From an uncultured Litoreibacter sp. (GTDB taxonomy: Bacteria; Pseudomonadota; Alphaproteobacteria; Rhodobacterales; Rhodobacteraceae): a stretch of 64,000 nucleotides of DNA. Positions 45,323 to 53,730 of the stretch are shown here, in pieces. Each line of letters starts with the position of its first letter. The stretch's first letter is position 1. The stretch is taken from positions 2,170,001 to 2,234,000 of the forward strand of contig CANLVO010000001.1 of NCBI GenBank assembly GCA_947494645.1, given 5' to 3'. The notes under the pieces are model-generated. The model was not told the origin of the DNA. It did no database searches and worked only from the letters and a program-made list of their open reading frames with translations. A program made the translations under genes and the position numbers.

Positions 45323-45457
45323 GTTTTCCTCCCTGGAAATGTCACCCCGACCTCCCGAGACGCGGCGTACATTCGTAAGAACCGCGCGGGTGCCGCGCAG
45401 TTGATCTTCACAAACTGACCTGCGAACCTTGCGTGAAACTTGCAGCGGCGAAAAAAG

Positions 45458-46132
45458 ATGCGGATCACGTTGGTCGAAGACAATATCGGGCTTTCCAAAG
45501 GCATCGCGTATCGGCTGCAAGACGCGGGCCACGCGGTCGACGTGCTGCATGACGGCGCAGAGGCCTCGCAGTTTCTGGCAACCGACACATCAGATCTGAT
45601 CATTCTCGACATCAACCTGCCCGGCAAGGACGGGCTGGAAATCCTGCGCGAGCTGCGCACCCGCGATGACCCGCGCCCCGTCGTGCTGCTGACCGCACGC
45701 GCTGACATCAAAGATCGCGTCATCGGTTTGGATGCAGGGGCCGACGACTACTTGATAAAACCCTTCGAGATGGACGAGCTAGAGGCCCGCGTCCGCGCCC
45801 TCAGCCGCCGCAGAGCAGACAAGTCTCGACAGGTGCGCACTATCGGAGCGCTGCAATTCGACGTGGCCGCGCGGCAGCTGAAAGCAGATGAAAAGACGCT
45901 GGACATCCCCCGCCGTGAGCTGTCGATTTTCGAACGTCTCATCCTCGCTGACGGGCGTCGCATCACCAAATCAGCGCTTCTTGACCATGTCTACGGCACC
46001 GGCGCGGATGTCGAAGAACGGGTGATTGAGGTCTATGTTTCCCGCCTCAGGTCCCGCCTGAAACAGCATGGGGTTGAGATAAACTCCGCCCGTGGCCTCG
46101 GGTATCAACTTCAGCAAAAGCGCGGCACATGA
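45458..46132 (+). CDS. tctD: OmpR-type response regulator of the tct locus
   Basis: A 224-residue regulator. The receiver domain has acidic residues in VEDN, phospho-acceptor Asp51 (LIILDINLPG), and Lys in LIKPF. The winged-helix DNA-binding domain begins near residue 128 (GALQFDVAARQLKADEKTL; RRELSIFERLILADGR; VSRLRSRLKQHGVEINSARG). ATG 45458 is preferred over an upstream TTG. It is divergent from tctC, 135 bp away, and overlaps the sensor kinase gene by 4 bp. It probably activates tct genes when the substrate is present. Confidence 0.87.
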   Translation: MRITLVEDNIGLSKGIAYRLQDAGHAVDVLHDGAEASQFLATDTSDLIILDINLPGKDGLEILRELRTRDDPRPVVLLTARADIKDRVIGLDAGADDYLIKPFEMDELEARVRALSRRRADKSRQVRTIGALQFDVAARQLKADEKTLDIPRRELSIFERLILADGRRITKSALLDHVYGTGADVEERVIEVYVSRLRSRLKQHGVEINSARGLGYQLQQKRGT

Positions 46133-47496
46133 ACACGCGTTCGCTGAGGCTGCGGCTAATCCTCATCATCTTGCTGCCTTTGCTGCTGGTCGCGGGCGTG
46201 ACGGCGCTGTGGCAGGTCCAGACAACCACGAAACGTGCCGAAGACATCTTTGATCGCGGCCTGCTTTCGGCGGCGCTGGCCATCTCGCGCGACGTGGCCT
46301 TGTCGGGCGGCGATGCGCTCGGCCCCTCCACCCGGCGCTTGGTCAGCGACACCTCGGGCGGGGAGTTGTTCTACCACGTCTTCGCCCCTGACGGCGTGTT
46401 CGTCACAGGGTATGCGACCCCGCCCGCACTGGGGGCCAATCTGACCGCAGACCATGACGAGCCGTTCTATTACGACGCCGTCTATCAAGGGCAGGACGTC
46501 CGCGTGCTCCGGTTCCGTGACGCCATGACCGTGGACGGGCTAACGGGGTTGTTCACCATCACCGTCTGGCAGCGCACGCAGGTCCGCGCCTCCTTTGTGC
46601 AGGCGGTCGGTTTCCGGGCGATCACAGTCATCGCACTGATGGTCGCGTCCGTCGCCGCAATCGTCTGGTTCGGCGTTGGGTTGGGTTTGCGCCCGCTATT
46701 GGACCTGCAGGACGCTATCGCCAAACGCACCCCCAGCGAGCTTGAACCGATCCGCCGCGGCGTGCCTGTAGAAGTGAAGGGAGTCGTGTCCACGCTCAAT
46801 TCATTGCTCGAACGGGTGTCACGGCGTATCAGTTCTAAAGACGAATTCATCTCGAATGCAGCGCATCAACTTCGCAACCCAATCGCTGGCATCCTCGCTT
46901 TGGCTGAAGCCGTGGAGAATGCGCCAAACGCCGAAGCTGCAAAACGCCGTAGCAAGGAGCTGGTGACCGCGGCCAGAGACGCAACCCACCTAACCAACCA
47001 GCTTTTGTCGTTCGAGCGCGCCAATGGCGATGCAAACGACATTCGGCGTCATCCGGTCGATGTGTCAGAGTTAATCCGCGCCTGCATGAGCCGTATCAAG
47101 AAGGACGCCGCGGGCCAAAATGTTGAGATCAATGTGACCCCAATGCCCGGACCCCTTTCGGTCTTGGGCGACACACTGATGTTGCAAGAGGCCATCTTGA
47201 ACCTTCTCAACAACGCTCTTGTTCATGGCGGGCCCTACTTGTCCCAGATCGAAGTATCTGCCCGTCAAAATAGACAAACGGTTGAGATCACCATTCAAGA
47301 TAACGGGCGCGGGATCAGTCCGGACAAACTAGATCAGGCGCTTGTTCGCTTTGGTCAGGCAGATGCCGGCCCCGGCAGCGGGCTAGGCCTATCCATCGTC
47401 CAACGCGTTTTGGAAAGTCACAACGGCCGCCTGGACCTCAGACCTGCGGAAAAGGGTCTCCAGGCAGTGATACTCTTGCCTTCTGTTTTGCCGTAA
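46129..47496 (+). CDS. tctE: Sensor histidine kinase of the tct locus
   Basis: A 455-residue membrane kinase. Helices lie at about residues 8-28 and 163-185 with a periplasmic sensor domain between. The phospho-His is in NAAHQLRNPIAG, followed by the N box (LNLLNNALVHG) and G boxes (DNGRGISPDKL and GSGLGLSIVQ). It phosphorylates the response regulator that it overlaps. The periplasmic domain is the TctE size and likely senses a tricarboxylate. Confidence 0.87.
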   Translation: MNTRSLRLRLILIILLPLLLVAGVTALWQVQTTTKRAEDIFDRGLLSAALAISRDVALSGGDALGPSTRRLVSDTSGGELFYHVFAPDGVFVTGYATPPALGANLTADHDEPFYYDAVYQGQDVRVLRFRDAMTVDGLTGLFTITVWQRTQVRASFVQAVGFRAITVIALMVASVAAIVWFGVGLGLRPLLDLQDAIAKRTPSELEPIRRGVPVEVKGVVSTLNSLLERVSRRISSKDEFISNAAHQLRNPIAGILALAEAVENAPNAEAAKRRSKELVTAARDATHLTNQLLSFERANGDANDIRRHPVDVSELIRACMSRIKKDAAGQNVEINVTPMPGPLSVLGDTLMLQEAILNLLNNALVHGGPYLSQIEVSARQNRQTVEITIQDNGRGISPDKLDQALVRFGQADAGPGSGLGLSIVQRVLESHNGRLDLRPAEKGLQAVILLPSVLP

Positions 47497-47635: not shown

Positions 47636-48550
47636 TTAGTGCATGATTGGCCTGGGTTCCACCGGGATGATGGTTTCGGGTGCCGGTGGGCGGTAGCCCA
47701 GAGCACTGTGTGGACGTTTGGTGTTGTAGTGTTTCCTCCACCTTTCGATCAGGATTTGTGCTCCTCGCAAGCTGTAGAAAACTTCTCCGTTGAGCAATTC
47801 ATCCCTCATTCGCGCATTGAAGCTTTCGCAGTAGCCGTTTTCCCACGTTGATCCCGGTTCGATGTATGCGGTCTTGGCCCGGACAGCTGAGATCCAGTCT
47901 CTGACAGCCTTGGCAATGAATTCTGGGCCGTTGTCTGACCGGATGTAGGCAGGCACCCCTCGCAGGATGAACAGGTCTGTCAGGGCGTCGATGACCTCGG
48001 TCGGGTTCAGTTTCCGCTTCACTCGGATTGCGAGGCATTCGCGGTTGTGTTCGTCCAAGATGTTCAGTGTTCGGAATGCCTTCCCATCATCCGTCCGGTA
48101 GTGAACGAAGTCATAGGACCAAACACGGTCGCGGTATTCTGGCCGTAGACGAATGCACGATCCGTCATTGAGCCAAAGCCGCCCTTTCTTTGGCTGCTTC
48201 ATTGGCACTTTGAGCCCCTACCGTCGCTACGGGCGTTCAACTCGCTTGTCGTTGACCAACCAGCCTGCATCTCTCAGCAGAGCCGCAATCCGATGATAGC
48301 CGTATCGACCATATAGGCGCGCCAGCTCGATCATGTCGGCCACCAGGCGATCTTCATCAGCCCGTCCAACTGGCAACCGCCTCTGCGTAGACCGATGCTG
48401 CCCCAAGACGCGACAAGCACGACGCTCCGAGATCTGGAACTGGCTCCGCACATGGTCAATGCAGGCTCGACGACGTGAAGGGCTCAGTAGTTTCCCCGCG
48501 CGGCATTCCCTGGCCGCAAAGCACCTCAACCTGCCGTGGCTTCGTGACAA
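47636..48550 (-). pseudogene. IS3-family transposase orfB, two nonsense mutations
   Basis: The DDE integrase core is intact in sequence: SYDFVHYRTDDGKAFRTLNI, then FILRGVPAYIRSDNGPEFIA and YCESFNARMRDELLNGEVFY, and KRPHSALGYRPPAP. The N-terminal half (LLSPSRRRACIDHVRSQFQI, then GRYGYHRIAALLRDAGW) is in the same frame but separated by two TAG codons at 48227-48229 and 48218-48220. These sit where the family reads Trp and Glu in RxWRREGL. The element cannot make full OrfB without suppression. Confidence 0.8.
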
Positions 48551-48725: not shown

Positions 48726-50219
48726 TCAAGCGCGGGACTCTTGTATCTTTGGCCAGATCGCGTCCCTTGCGTCTTTCCCGACAAAGAACAACACCTCGTC
48801 GGAGGTGATACCCGGGTGTACGCGCAACACCTCTTTCACGGCCCTATTCGTCGCCGATGCGTCTTTGCGAACCAGGTAGAGCGCAACGGCGGCCAACCGG
48901 GGAAGGTAGTTGACGTCATCGCGAGAGATGGCTTGCTCAGCGCTTGATTGAGCTGCATCCAATTGGCCGCATTTCAGCTCTGCAATCGCGAGGATTGCCC
49001 CCCAAACGGCCAATCTGCTGTCGGCCGGGCTGATCTCGATGCTTTTGCGCAAGTAGGCGAGGGCAGCGTCAAAGTCTCCCCTCATCATCAGTGCGGCACC
49101 CTTTGCCGCATAGGCGTGGCCGTTCATCGGGTCCAGATCAAGCGCACGGTCAATGATAGGCTCGCCCCTCGCGAGTTGGCCAACATCGCAGAGGGCACAG
49201 CCTGTGAGACCCAAGACTGACGAATCCTGACCCTCCAGAGACAAGGCCAGCTCTGCGTTATCAATCGCGCGCTTCACGACGTTATCGTCCTGTCGTAGCA
49301 TGCCGACCCGATATCCAATGGCGTTCATGAGCGATACCATGGCGTAGGCCAGAGGGATTTCCTTGTCTTTGGCAATCGCTTGATCCAGCAAGTCATCGGC
49401 AGCGATAATGGATTTTGGATTCCAACCACGCTCCGCGATCACTTGCATAGCGCGAAGAACCAAGGCGCGCGGCTCAGTCTGGTCATGTGCCGCCAGAAAC
49501 TCCGCTGTGGCCTTCAAAATCTGCGGTTCCGCCTTGGGACCAATCTGGAAAATAAGCGTTTCAACCCCCGTCTCAGATGGCACCGATACATGCCTTGCCC
49601 ACTTCTGAAGACCATCGCTTAGATCGGACAAGCTAATATCGGCGTAGAAGCGATCTTCCATCGAAGAGAGGGCGATTTCGAGATGGTGGGTCGGCGTGGC
49701 GGGCAACCCGTTCAATCCTGGCGACGTGCTGGCAGAACGAGCGGCGGCGATGTTCAAAAAGGGTATCCGATTGAACGCAGCGCGCAAACGTCCATCCAAC
49801 GCACGGGCCATCACAGGGGAAATGGAGGCATCTAACGGCACCACATTGATCTGCAAGACAGGCGTCGCCAAACTTTGCAGCTGTGTCTCATTCCGGGACG
49901 GGCCCTGTTCACGTGTCTCCCCCACAAACTGAAAACCGCGGCCGTGAACTGTTCGGATGATCCGCTTATGTGCGTCGGTATCCCCCAGAGCTTTGCGCGC
50001 CGACTTGATCGCTGATGAAATCGTCGTGTCCGAGACGATGCGTCCCTTCCACACGGTTTCAATAAGGTCATCGCGGGTTCGCAGTGCACCGGGATGCCGC
50101 GCCATCTCGATAATCAGATCAAGGACAAGCGGCTCAACCGAAACGTGCTGGCCATCCCGGCGCAACTCAAATGCTTCGGTGTCGACACTGAATTTTCCGA
50201 ATTCCAGCTTCTCGGTCAT
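48726..50219 (-). CDS. Winged-helix (OmpR/CadC-type) regulator with TPR-like C-terminus
   Basis: A 497-residue protein; ATG 50219 follows GGAGG. Residues 1-100 are an OmpR-type winged helix without a receiver: VSVEPLVLDLIIEMARHPGA, then ALRTRDDLIETVWKGRIVSD, ISSAIKSARKALGD and RTVHGRGFQFVG. From about residue 120 a mixed domain is followed by TPR-like helices (LGLTGCALCDVGQLARGEPI; AYAAKGAALMMRGDFDAALA; LAIAELKCGQLDAAQSSAEQ). There is no transmembrane helix, unlike CadC. OmpR-type domains bind direct repeats with 11-bp spacing, and three such arrays lie upstream of neighbouring genes, including its own divergent region. Confidence 0.85.
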   Translation of the reverse strand: MTEKLEFGKFSVDTEAFELRRDGQHVSVEPLVLDLIIEMARHPGALRTRDDLIETVWKGRIVSDTTISSAIKSARKALGDTDAHKRIIRTVHGRGFQFVGETREQGPSRNETQLQSLATPVLQINVVPLDASISPVMARALDGRLRAAFNRIPFLNIAAARSASTSPGLNGLPATPTHHLEIALSSMEDRFYADISLSDLSDGLQKWARHVSVPSETGVETLIFQIGPKAEPQILKATAEFLAAHDQTEPRALVLRAMQVIAERGWNPKSIIAADDLLDQAIAKDKEIPLAYAMVSLMNAIGYRVGMLRQDDNVVKRAIDNAELALSLEGQDSSVLGLTGCALCDVGQLARGEPIIDRALDLDPMNGHAYAAKGAALMMRGDFDAALAYLRKSIEISPADSRLAVWGAILAIAELKCGQLDAAQSSAEQAISRDDVNYLPRLAAVALYLVRKDASATNRAVKEVLRVHPGITSDEVLFFVGKDARDAIWPKIQESRA

Positions 50220-50309: not shown

Positions 50310-50342
50310 CCCAAGATATCCCCCTGAATTCCTCAAGCAAGG
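50310..50342 (+). promoter_or_regulatory. 11-bp tandem repeat array (degenerate) before the methyltransferase
   Basis: Three 11-bp units: CCCAAGATATC, CCCCTGAATTC, CTCAAGCAAGG. The last matches the third unit of the two better arrays downstream (51636, 52502). It lies between the divergent winged-helix/TPR regulator and the methyltransferase, 86 bp before the latter's start. Confidence 0.55.
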
Positions 50343-50428
50343 ATCGCGCTGCTTTGCGATGACGGGTTCATCGGCAGTCACGCCGCACAACCAGAAAGCT
50401 GAATTCTCAACTCTTGAAAGGACCGAAA

Positions 50429-51247
50429 ATGACACTTCAAACTGAAATCAAACCTGACTTTGACGCCATCAAGTCCAAGCAAAATGCAGCCTGGGCTTCG
50501 GGCGACTATGCGGTCGTGGGAACGACCATTCAGGTCGTGGGCGAAACCCTTGCCGAAGCCGTCGATCTTGTTCCCGGAGCGACCGTTCTGGACGTGGCGT
50601 CAGGGAACGGCAATGCAACGCTTGCCATGGCGCGTCGCTGGCACAAAGTGACCTCGACCGACTACGTGCAATCTCTGCTCGACAAGGGGCAGGCCCGGGC
50701 TCAAGCCGAAAATCTGAACGTTGCCTTCGAGGTCGCGGATGCCGAAGCCTTGCCATTTGCTGACGCGTCGTTCGATGCGGTAGTGTCCACCTTCGGCGTC
50801 ATGTTCGCCCCGAACCAGCACAAGGCAGCATCCGAGATGCTACGGGTATGCAAGCCCGGCGGCTCGATCGGCATGGCCAACTGGACGCCGTCTGGTTTCA
50901 TCGGCCAGTTGTTCAAGACGCTTGGCGGTCACGTAGCACCCCCGCCTGGCGTCGAATCGCCCGCGCTTTGGGGTGATGTGGCGTGGCTTGAGAACGCGTT
51001 CGCTCCCGCTGCCTCCGTCAACGCCAACCTGCGTCAATTCGTGTTCCGCTACCGTGACGCCAAGCACTTCCTAGACGTCTTCCGGACGCTTTACGGTCCC
51101 GTGCACAAAGCCTTCCTGTCACTCGACGAGGCCGGGCGCGCGGCACTTGAACAGGACATTCTTGCGCTCATCGACCGGATGAACGTGGCCACTGACGGAT
51201 CGATGAAAGTCCCCAGCGACTACCTTGAGATTGTCATCACCCGATAG
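50429..51247 (+). CDS. SAM-dependent class I methyltransferase
   Basis: A 272-residue enzyme; ATG 50429 follows GAAAGGA. The AdoMet fold is clear: motif I VLDVASGNGNATLAMAR at about residues 52-68, an acidic residue at the end of strand two (VTSTDYVQSLLDKG), motif II FEVADAEALPFADASFDAVV, and motif III MLRVCKPGGSIGMANW. It resembles UbiE/Coq5-like and small-molecule methyltransferases. The substrate is unknown. It is divergent from the winged-helix/TPR regulator and has an upstream repeat array. Confidence 0.84.
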   Translation: MTLQTEIKPDFDAIKSKQNAAWASGDYAVVGTTIQVVGETLAEAVDLVPGATVLDVASGNGNATLAMARRWHKVTSTDYVQSLLDKGQARAQAENLNVAFEVADAEALPFADASFDAVVSTFGVMFAPNQHKAASEMLRVCKPGGSIGMANWTPSGFIGQLFKTLGGHVAPPPGVESPALWGDVAWLENAFAPAASVNANLRQFVFRYRDAKHFLDVFRTLYGPVHKAFLSLDEAGRAALEQDILALIDRMNVATDGSMKVPSDYLEIVITR

Positions 51248-51328
51248 CGCGAAACCACAACCGACACCGTAGCCGAACAGCCCTGCGGTGTCGGTCACTC
51301 AAACCTCACGTTCCTGAAAGGACAACAC

Positions 51329-51487
51329 ATGCTGAAGACAGTTAAAGCTACCCTGCGCGCCGAAAGGGATCGTCGCCGGAAGCATGCCGAGATGCGGAAT
51401 ATAACACGTAGCCTCGACGCCCTTGCCCTCACAGAGCTTGGCTACCCGCCACAAGAGCCAAAGCGCGGCTGGTTCTACTACCGATGA
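51329..51487 (+). CDS. Small basic protein, DUF1127/YjiS-like
   Basis: A 52-residue ORF starting at ATG 51329 after GAAAGGA. It is Arg/Lys rich: MLKTVKATLRAERDRRRKHA, then LDALALTELGYPPQEPKRGW to the end. The DALALTELGY segment is reminiscent of the YjiS/DUF1127 motif, but the match is partial. It lies 81 bp after the methyltransferase on the same strand. DUF1127 proteins of this size help RNA-based regulation in related bacteria. I am only moderately sure it is a gene. Confidence 0.5.
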   Translation: MLKTVKATLRAERDRRRKHAEMRNITRSLDALALTELGYPPQEPKRGWFYYR

Positions 51488-51635
51488 GGTCGCGCCAGGC
51501 CAAGCCCAACCCGAGGCTGCAAAGGCACGGAGACGTCTGGTGTCAACACATCAACGCTCCGAGCCTTTGTGAATGGCTTCCCGGACTCGATCGGCCCAGC
51601 AACCATATCTGAGATCAGACTGCCGTTCACCGATC

Positions 51636-51668
51636 CTCAAGAAATCCTCAAGGCCCGCTCAAGCAAGC
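51636..51668 (+). promoter_or_regulatory. Three-unit 11-bp CTCAAG repeat array before the acetyltransferase
   Basis: CTCAAGAAATC, CTCAAGGCCCG, CTCAAGCAAGC: three perfect CTCAAG cores at 11-bp phase. The array ends 57 bp before the acetyltransferase start. A TCTAAG box lies 24 bp after the start of the last unit, a plausible -10, so the array would overlap the -35 region, as Pho-type activator sites do. Confidence 0.7.
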
Positions 51669-51724
51669 AGCCGATCTCAAGTCTAAGTCTCGACCATCCG
51701 AAAACGAACACAAAAGAGAACACC

Positions 51725-52426
51725 ATGTTTGATCACCCACAAAACGTTCCACTGTCCGACGACTTGGACACTCCCATCAACGCGTCCTTCGACGGAGCAT
51801 GGTCCGAATTCACACAAACATACGGAACCGCCACAGCCTTGCGGGAAGACATCGGACATTTCGCACGGCCCTTCGGCCGGTCCCAACAGGATCACGACGA
51901 CTTCGTGACCCTGATAAAGTCGCGCACCAAACCTGCGATCCTCTTTCAGATCGAAAAGCCAGTGGTTCCGAAAGGCCTTGAAATTCTCGCTGCACGTCGA
52001 TGTGTGCAAATGGTGTCTGAGGTTCCGATACATGCAGAAACACGCATTGCTTGTCTGGATTTGGACACAAAAGACCGCGAGGACATGTTTGCACTAGCCG
52101 ATCTGACCAAGCCCGGCCCATTTGAGCGCAACACCCATCTGTTGGGAGGCTTCATCGGCCTTCGCAAACAGGGCCAGCTGGTGGCAATGGCAGGGCGACG
52201 CATGGCATTTCCAGGGTGGATCGAAATCAGCGGCGTCTGTGTGCACCCCGATTTCAGAGGCCGCAGCCTTGCCCGATTGCTTGTTGCTGAGGTGATGCAG
52301 CGGATCGCGCAGGAAGGCGCGACGCCGTTCTTGCACACCTATTCCGACAACGAGGCCGCCATCACGCTGTATCGCCGGTTGGGCTTCGAAATTCGCACCG
52401 AAGCCCATGTCATGATGGTCAGCTAG
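51725..52426 (+). CDS. GNAT-family N-acetyltransferase
   Basis: A 233-residue protein. ATG 51725 follows AGAGAACACC; the long 5' leader holds the repeat array. The C-terminal half is a GNAT fold: GFIGLRKQGQLVAMAGRRMA, then IEISGVCVHPDFRGRSLARL, where V-HPDFRGRSLA is the acetyl-CoA pyrophosphate loop, and FLHTYSDNEAAITLYRRLGF at the end. Residues 1-110 form an extra N-terminal region. The acceptor is unknown. It is between the two methyltransferase genes. Confidence 0.8.
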   Translation: MFDHPQNVPLSDDLDTPINASFDGAWSEFTQTYGTATALREDIGHFARPFGRSQQDHDDFVTLIKSRTKPAILFQIEKPVVPKGLEILAARRCVQMVSEVPIHAETRIACLDLDTKDREDMFALADLTKPGPFERNTHLLGGFIGLRKQGQLVAMAGRRMAFPGWIEISGVCVHPDFRGRSLARLLVAEVMQRIAQEGATPFLHTYSDNEAAITLYRRLGFEIRTEAHVMMVS

Positions 52427-52501
52427 CGCATCACCGCTCAGGCGCGTGGTCACGCATCGCGCGCTCCTGCCGGGCCGGACTCCCACGGGCCGCTGGCAAT
52501 C

Positions 52502-52534
52502 CTCAAGAAACCCTCAAATGACCCTCAAGCAGAC
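52502..52534 (+). promoter_or_regulatory. Three-unit 11-bp CTCAAG repeat array before the membrane methyltransferase
   Basis: CTCAAGAAACC, CTCAAATGACC, CTCAAGCAGAC: two perfect and one near-perfect core at 11-bp phase. The first unit shares 10 of 11 bases with the first unit at 51636. It ends 86 bp before the downstream start, with CATAAG 26 bp after the start of the last unit. Confidence 0.7.
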
Positions 52535-52619
52535 GCGCGGCCTGCGCGCCATAAGCGGCCCTGCAACGCGGATCACACAAATTGATCCACCACCAACCCT
52601 GTCAAAAACGGAGACTTCA

Positions 52620-53444
52620 ATGACCCATAATTCTTCACAATCAATGTCCTTCCCCGACGAAGGCAACCGCATTTCCCCAAACCCGCCACGCCCGAAACGC
52701 GTGGTGATATTTGCATATGGCATCCTCGCCTACCTGATGTTTCTGGTGGTGTTTTCCTACATGGCGGGCTTCTTGCTGAGCTTCCTCGTCCCCAAGGGGA
52801 TCAACACGGCCACACCTGACGACATGAGCCTTGGAGCAGCGCTTGCCCTCAATATGGGGCTGATTGCGCTCTTTGGTTTCTTTCACAGCCTGTTGGCCCG
52901 TGAACGCGTCAAGGCCGTGCTGTTGAAAGTGCTCCCACAGGCGGCAGAACGCAGCACCTATGTGGTGCAATCCAGCCTCTGCCTGGCTCTGGCCATGTGG
53001 CAATGGCAAGCGCTGCCCGGCACGATCTGGCAGGTAGATGGTCCGTTGGCTGTTGTCGCCTATGCGGTCTTCGGGATCGGGACTGGTATGGTTTTGTGGT
53101 CCACCTTTTTGATCGACCATTTCGAGCTGTTCGGACTGCGCCAAATCTGGAGCCACCTGCGTGGTGCTCAGATGCCCGAGCCCGAGTTCCGCACACCTGC
53201 TCTCTACCGCATCGTGCGTCACCCAATGCAGTTGGGTGTCATCATCCTGCTCTTTGCGACACCGCATATGACGTGGGGCCACATGCTCTTTGCCGGATCA
53301 ATGACGGCGTACATCTTTGTCGGGCTCTACTTCGAAGAACGCGCCCTGCTGCGCATGTTTGGCGACAGATACGCAGCCTACCAACAGGCCGTGCCCATGC
53401 TGTTCCCGTCCTTCACACGCCGCTTGAAATTGGCTTCTGCGTGA
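52620..53444 (+). CDS. mddA: Membrane S-methyltransferase of the NnrU/MddA type
   Basis: A 274-residue membrane protein with about five helices; ATG 52620 follows GGAG. The catalytic region of isoprenylcysteine-methyltransferase-like enzymes is present: EFRTPALYRIVRHPMQLGVI, where RHPMQLG binds AdoMet, and then ATPHMTWGHMLFAGSMTAYI and the FEERALLRMFGDRYAAYQQ end. This matches MddA, which methylates methanethiol to dimethyl sulfide. Other small thiols are possible. Its promoter carries the CTCAAG array shared with the acetyltransferase gene. Confidence 0.7.
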   Translation: MTHNSSQSMSFPDEGNRISPNPPRPKRVVIFAYGILAYLMFLVVFSYMAGFLLSFLVPKGINTATPDDMSLGAALALNMGLIALFGFFHSLLARERVKAVLLKVLPQAAERSTYVVQSSLCLALAMWQWQALPGTIWQVDGPLAVVAYAVFGIGTGMVLWSTFLIDHFELFGLRQIWSHLRGAQMPEPEFRTPALYRIVRHPMQLGVIILLFATPHMTWGHMLFAGSMTAYIFVGLYFEERALLRMFGDRYAAYQQAVPMLFPSFTRRLKLASA

Positions 53445-53497
53445 ACACGCTGCGGCCTCCGAACGACGCGGAGGCCGCCTCATCGGCGAGAGTTATT

Positions 53498-53595
53498 ATG
53501 CACAACAGACCCACCCTCATGGCCATCCACGGATCAGCAAGTTCCGGCAAGCAGTGGCAATCCCTGCGAGATATGGCTGAGCCCAGTTTTGCCGC
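53498..53595 (+). pseudogene. Alpha/beta-hydrolase N-terminal fragment
   Basis: ATG 53498 begins MHNRPTLMAIHGSASSGKQW, then QSLRDMAE. The strand followed by HGSASSG is the oxyanion-hole region of alpha/beta hydrolases. After about 33 codons the homology stops at 53595, where sequence of an oppositely oriented regulator begins. It is a truncated remnant. Confidence 0.5.
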
Positions 53596-53730
53596 CCGGG
53601 CGCGTTCTTCGATCAGAAACTTGAGCAAGGCAAAGCACTTCGGCTCCAGTGGCACGACGCCACTGGGACCGCGCAGTTCCACCGCGTCGGTGTCTAACCG
53701 AAGCTGTCCAAACTCAAAAATCATCGGCAA
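53595..53730 (-). pseudogene. Winged-helix regulator N-terminal fragment
   Basis: Read on the minus strand, MIFEFGQLRLDTDAVELRGP and then VVPLEPKCFALLKFLIEE match the start of an OmpR/CadC-type winged helix like that at 48726-50219. Homology ends where the hydrolase fragment begins (about 53595), so the recognition helix is missing. The rest of 53731-53874 holds nothing I recognise. Confidence 0.65.

Follow-up and report, generated by a model that had tools for sequence, protein, structure and literature searches.

The binding of OmpR-type proteins to 11-bp direct repeats is a well-known mode, and in PhoB the OmpR-type domain sits on 11-bp direct repeats (pho box unit CTGTCAT) that replace the −35 element. 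HilA carries TPRs, and its HilA boxes are repeats spaced by 11 bp. In the 64,000-nucleotide stretch from an uncultured Litoreibacter sp. analyzed here (the window), a regulator encoded at 48726-50219 lies next to three arrays of 11-bp repeats. It differs from PhoB in lacking a receiver domain, and the repeat unit is TCAAG-like as opposed to CTGTCAT. HilA/YgeH and CadC, like this regulator, have an N-terminal OmpR-type winged helix without a receiver, but CadC has a membrane segment that the window protein lacks, and the repeats and targets of HilA/YgeH and CadC differ from those found here. HilA is described as an OmpR/ToxR-family activator (PMC7232297). AfsR, a SARP, is described as binding two 11-bp direct repeats as a dimer with its subunits side by side, and the upstream repeat overlaps the −35 (PMC10936776). 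The OmpR-type domain and TPRs are shared between SARP/AfsR and our regulator, but AfsR uses two repeat units and the window arrays have three; the SARP repeats are given as ending 8 bp from the −10 (PMC10936776), while in the window group the last TTCAAG is separated from the −10-like hexamer by 20 bp.

When the regulator was compared with NCBIfam, the best match was CadC and the fifth was HilA/EilA. In each case only the winged helix was matched, and the scores were far below the equivalog cut-offs (62 of 400 bits for NF007540 and 43.7 of 589 bits for NF009037). Pfam at 0.001 gave only the winged helix and TPRs, with no match to the bacterial transcriptional activation domain of SARPs. By these tests the regulator is not in the HilA, CadC or SARP families, and a literature search of titles and the beginnings of abstracts returned no description of these arrays or of the regulon.

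The regulator locus and its proposed target genes

The features of the locus, with −10-like hexamers and starts predicted by alignment to relatives, are as follows (R1 is a profile of 50 relatives' sites, discussed below).

48726-50219, − strand: regulator of the receiver-less winged-helix/TPR one-component type, 497 aa (Pfam), divergent from the 50429 gene
50310-50342, + strand: array 1, three 11-bp units, 4/18 core mismatches, at the divergent promoter (matrix 20.3 bits; genome rank 2 with R1)
50358-50370, + strand: −10-like hexamer (GATGAC) and start (A50370) predicted downstream of array 1 (aligned to relatives' columns 57-62 and 67-70)
50429-51247, + strand: class I SAM methyltransferase, UbiE-like (Pfam Methyltransf_25, 6.3e-23; homologue behind the G184 array)
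51329-51487, + strand: small basic ORF, 52 aa, possibly co-transcribed with 50429 (from sequence)
51636-51668, + strand: array 2, exact CTCAAG x3 (pattern; genome rank 3 with R1)
51684-51696, + strand: −10-like hexamer (TAAGTC) and start (A51696) predicted downstream of array 2
51725-52426, + strand: GNAT acetyltransferase, FR47-like (Pfam 3e-18)
52502-52534, + strand: array 3, CTCAAG/CTCAAA/CTCAAG, 1 mismatch (pattern; genome rank 1 with R1)
52550-52562, + strand: −10-like hexamer (CATAAG) predicted downstream of array 3, with a weak predicted start near 52562
52620-53444, + strand: MddA-like membrane methyltransferase, methanethiol S-methyltransferase family (NCBIfam NF045656; Pfam NnrU 1e-05)

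The regulator has an N-terminal Trans_reg_C domain (PF00486, 2.1e-12, 47.4 bits against a cut-off of 26.2), and the top natural solved match of the winged helix (residues 7-98) is 5ju7, the CadC DNA-binding domain. TPRs were found by Pfam in the C-terminal part. No receiver domain was matched in Pfam, with the winged helix beginning near residue 7, and no 19-residue stretch exceeded a hydropathy of 1.6 in the search for a membrane segment. The preliminary description of a neighbouring receiver-less winged-helix regulator with TPR-like helices therefore agrees with the domain search. The host genome has a single winged-helix match to this domain at E ≤ 1e-10.

IS3-like transposase pieces, identified by eye, are present at 47636-48550. 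Since these pieces adjoin the regulator, and the regulator, GNAT and MddA-like genes were absent at the limits used from G171, the sole genome of the same genus sampled, the data suggest an accessory locus. On the other side of the gene group, at 53499-53730, an alpha/beta-hydrolase-like gene (by eye, no Pfam match) beginning on the + strand runs into the beginning of another winged-helix regulator (a weak HMM match) on the − strand. This scar looks as if a deletion fused two converging genes.

The gene at 52620, previously noted only as a membrane methyltransferase, can be refined to MddA-like by sequence: its match to NF045656 is almost full-length (positions 2-238 of 238, E 1.6e-78) and scores 263.3 bits, just below the curated cut-off of 270. 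The 52-aa ORF had no match in Pfam or NCBIfam.

All three arrays lie on the + strand in exact 11-bp phase. Their units are CCCAAGATATC/CCCCTGAATTC/CTCAAGCAAGG (array 1, 50310-50342), CTCAAGAAATC/CTCAAGGCCCG/CTCAAGCAAGC (array 2, 51636-51668) and CTCAAGAAACC/CTCAAATGACC/CTCAAGCAGAC (array 3, 52502-52534). The distances to the ATG are 86, 56 and 85 bp for arrays 1, 2 and 3, close to the earlier claim of three-unit repeats in gene orientation 57-86 bp before the starts, and each ATG is preceded by a purine-rich sequence resembling a ribosome site. The two clear cores that had been reported, CTCAAG x3 and CTCAAG/CTCAAA/CTCAAG, are those of arrays 2 and 3, with 0 and 1 mismatch. The spacers between the units differ, which argues against simple slippage.

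A search for CTCAAG-N5 x3 that allowed up to three mismatches hit the window twice, once exactly and once with 1 mismatch, against 0.07 expected. In the full-genome search that the preliminary description had proposed, only arrays 2 and 3 were found in 3.44 Mb, and a reversed control pattern gave 1 match. Array 1, with 4/18 mismatches, would not stand out by this pattern. CTCAAR x3 was found in 3/295 family genomes versus 4/295 for the reversed control and is thus not enriched, and a class scan matched 6/385 genomes, the five besides our own having repeats with near-identical spacers (two of these, L142 and L144, passed 15 bits and were dropped from the promoter-column set below). A scan of named genomes for the exact pattern returned at least 119 stretches from many phyla. 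Winged-helix HMM matches were present in 9 of the 119 listed loci (L028, L032, L055, L056, L062, L067, L082, L093 and L100), six of them in open frames of 210-328 aa, most the size of response regulators, and those of L093 and L100 in much longer frames. L067 alone of the nine resembles the group of the window regulator; L093 scored 3.8 bits and is a 916-aa protein. Because loci picked by CTCAAG are no fair control, matrix scores of these stretches were not used.

A shared putative operator in relatives of the regulator

Using the whole protein as a query, the regulator was found in 8/295 family genomes at E ≤ 1e-30, and with the winged helix alone in 37/149 genomes at 76 places (own genome included in both). 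L134 (G185), retrieved with the protein as query, carries a phased array close to the 50310 array of the window, and L067 and G229, found via CTCAAG patterns, each have a winged-helix regulator from which an exact CTCAAG x3 directly diverges. To obtain a motif that does not depend on the window, expectation maximisation was run on the DNA before the coding start in 73 regulator-upstream regions with the window excluded, three of which (L067, L139 and L093) had entered by pattern. The resulting motif, aAGgaAaTC.CaAGGaaTTCttcAGgtc.cCtTCAAGC, consists of three 11-bp direct repeats and has a likelihood score of 719 compared to 134-135 for three shuffles. In a four-fold hold-out at 12 bits it was found in 46/71 regions on the divergent strand, 1/71 on the other strand and 0/71 when shuffled. 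The repeat period is also seen in self-match across 56 sites (including the window's three and the two dropped afterwards), which reached 0.455 and 0.417 at lags 11 and 22, with downstream DNA at 0.276 and 0.250.

Relatives carrying the regulator, with which a comparison had been proposed, have 11-bp arrays of this kind at their divergent promoters, and the window arrays belong to this operator family. It also changes the description of the operator itself. CTCAAG x3 does not hold as the core; the family consensus is approximately (T/C)CAAGGAATTC units ending in TTCAAGC, and CTCAAG is a local version. Array 1, which had been regarded as the degenerate member of the three, occupies the usual array position of relatives.

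Applied to both strands of the window, the relatives' weight matrix placed its best sites at 52493 (25.4 bits), 50301 (20.3) and 51627 (15.4), followed by 12.1. In 800 two-strand runs of a Markov-1 simulation of the window, the single best site reached 20.3 bits in 3 and 25.4 in none, and no run had two sites of at least 20.3 bits or a third of at least 15.4. A smaller control of 20 one-strand runs gave one chance site of 31.2 bits. No single matrix score is proof, and the 15.4 bits of array 2, taken alone, are no more than the best chance site of a run can reach, but the set of three arrays is far outside chance.

Placement of the arrays was examined in 77 loci that had not been chosen by CTCAAG (527,373 bases, 70 winged-helix matches). 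Arrays of at least 15 bits lay upstream of a winged-helix match in 45 cases, most of them in the training set, with all 45 divergent and their centres 52-143 bp from the start of the winged-helix domain. With 45 arrays for 70 matches, many regulators have no array found. Only four further arrays reached 15 bits in these loci, namely those of G125 and G184.

In G125, a genome of another genus, three arrays were found at a distance of 1.8-3 kb from a winged-helix gene. One precedes an RTX-repeat gene, one a globin gene and one, ~84 bp ahead of the likely ATG, an MddA-like gene 70% identical to the third target of the window. The G125 units are CTGCAAG-like, so the operator sequence appears to have changed and the arrangement to have stayed. 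Its regulator (L230 5734-7344) is spread over two frames, one with the winged helix and one with the TPRs, either through sequencing error or through decay. G184 has the TPR half of a regulator, whose DNA-binding half (winged helix) was not found, and behind it come an array, an ORF of 60 aa and a homologue of the 50429 methyltransferase that is frame-split. G037 has a pair of back-to-back arrays at 3 kb from its winged-helix gene; the gene following one of them is, by eye, a methyltransferase of a different type. G010 has a regulator and a target (a tautomerase) tail to tail, with an array at the target and none found at the regulator start (L151). Among the other relatives, 8/9 MddA-like and 2/2 GNAT genes lacked an array scoring more than 8 bits in the 1.5 kb around them, and an HMM scan of ten MddA/GNAT neighbourhoods other than that of G125 found no such regulator. 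Since the GNAT relatives show no array, array 2 rests on its own sequence.

In the 3.44-Mb genome of the window, profile R1 (two of its 50 sites, L067 and L139, entered by pattern) ranked array 3 first, array 1 second and array 2 third, with E values of 3e-4, 0.012 and 0.037 and with 150 of 859 first-look candidates scored. Matches 4-8, from E 0.10 onwards, had no phased repeats. Across 149 genomes we used stricter filters (32 candidates scored per genome, E ≤ 0.01), under which only one of the three window arrays passed. This run gave 65 sites in 42 genomes, 41 of the 65 sites being divergent from a domain match and no more than 300 bp upstream. A site was present in 33/37 genomes with the regulator and 9/112 without it (Fisher p 1.7e-20), so that arrays and regulator co-occur in the family; the positive side is partly circular, as R1 was built from such genomes, but the absence from the 112 is not. 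Sites below E 1e-4 were found in 27 genomes, all bearing the regulator, and those of the nine genomes with no detected regulator fell between 1e-4 and 0.01 (best G014, 1.0e-4). Wide occurrence of such arrays without the regulator had been named as grounds for doubt. None of the 112 family genomes without it has one at E < 1e-4; outside the family, other alphaproteobacteria have exact CTCAAG x3 with unlike spacers (L038 4898, L066 2011 and L057 4547) and no winged-helix match by HMM in their 8-kb loci. A very strong array (E 1.8e-10) was also seen before a small ORF around 1500 in L250, a contig with no winged-helix place.

Predicted promoter form and the proposed activation

Among 51 relatives' sites, columns outside the 40 that were trained are fixed to a considerable degree (A58 in 46, T62 in 38, C68 in 37 and A69 in 35), and the best untrained column, at 1.38 bits, was not equalled in 1000 jittered sets. 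We infer a −10 at columns 57-62 and a start at 69, which would put the last TTCAAG at −38 to −33; from the last TTCAAG to the −10-like hexamer there are 20 bp in relatives. The window arrays have A58 in 3/3, T62 in 0/3 and A69 in 2/3. The array 1 promoter has A58 and TCAT but no T62, and that of array 3 has A58 only, with T as the start base and no TCAT.

We consider it very probable that the 48726-50219 protein is a cytoplasmic one-component activator acting on the three arrays and driving three adjacent same-strand promoters. Its N-terminal OmpR-type winged helix would bind the three 11-bp direct repeats head to tail on one face of the DNA, with the repeats at about −69 to −33 from the start and the last one (TCAAGC) covering a poor −35 region; once bound, the protein would help RNA polymerase to engage a weak −10. 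A signal may be sensed by the TPR part at the C-terminus. Under this reading the regulator would drive the methyltransferase with its small ORF, the GNAT acetyltransferase and the MddA-like methyltransferase, making it a candidate regulator for an MddA-like gene.

OmpR-type proteins can both activate and repress, and an array bound over the −35 could block polymerase, so the same protein might use these operators as a repressor or switch between both. We regard this as unlikely, because in relatives the last repeat replaces the −35 at a constant distance from a weak −10, and this is the usual form of an activator-dependent promoter. It is a good deal less likely still that another winged-helix protein is the binder. 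Candidates with an OmpR-type domain are the response regulator encoded in the two-component pair (45440-47496) and the former owner of the fragment at 53413-53730, and the fragment is directly behind the third target; however, the fragment is a remnant, arrays in relatives adjoin regulators with an N-terminal winged helix, and the host genome offers just the one match to the regulator's domain noted above.

That the arrays are functionless, as simple tandem repeats or products of chance, seems hardly credible. Repeats of this sort do exist, as all five other genomes matched in the class scan have near-identical spacers, but the spacers in the window differ, a profile taken from other genomes ranks the three arrays 1-3 in their own, and their joint scores were reached in 0/800 simulations.

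Activation by the winged-helix/TPR regulator may be one case of a wider arrangement. In both ~390-aa regulators tested, an alpha/beta-hydrolase domain replaces the TPRs. We tentatively propose, at slightly less than an even chance, a family-wide control code in which winged-helix/TPR and winged-helix/alpha/beta-hydrolase activators have a promoter form in common (three 11-bp repeats with TTCAAGC at the end, 20 bp before a weak −10), the MddA-like group of the window included. If so, the window group possibly covers the conversion of methanethiol to dimethylsulfide. The regulator group, present in 37/149 sampled family genomes with our own counted, would gain a readable operator and promoter from which targets can be called from sequence.

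The first genes behind arrays in relatives include cysteine-synthase-like genes (L158, L212, L215 and L216; L212 by profile and the rest by eye), homocysteine S-methyltransferase-like genes (L207 by profile, L208 by eye) and class I methyltransferases (L159 and L202), together with OsmC, tautomerase, cupredoxin and SDR genes. Profiles were checked for one member each of the cysteine-synthase-like, methyltransferase, homocysteine S-methyltransferase-like, OsmC, tautomerase and cupredoxin genes, and one weak cysteine-dioxygenase match, below its cut-off, occurred among the first targets. Sulfur-related enzymes recur here, but a common signal is a lead and not a result, since the cupredoxin, tautomerase, OsmC and SDR targets have no such link. 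The arrays of the ~390-aa regulators often precede tiny proteins (the one tested had no Pfam match) with a conserved RPDGSIDTxxY, as in L194 2426-2620, L183, L206 and others.
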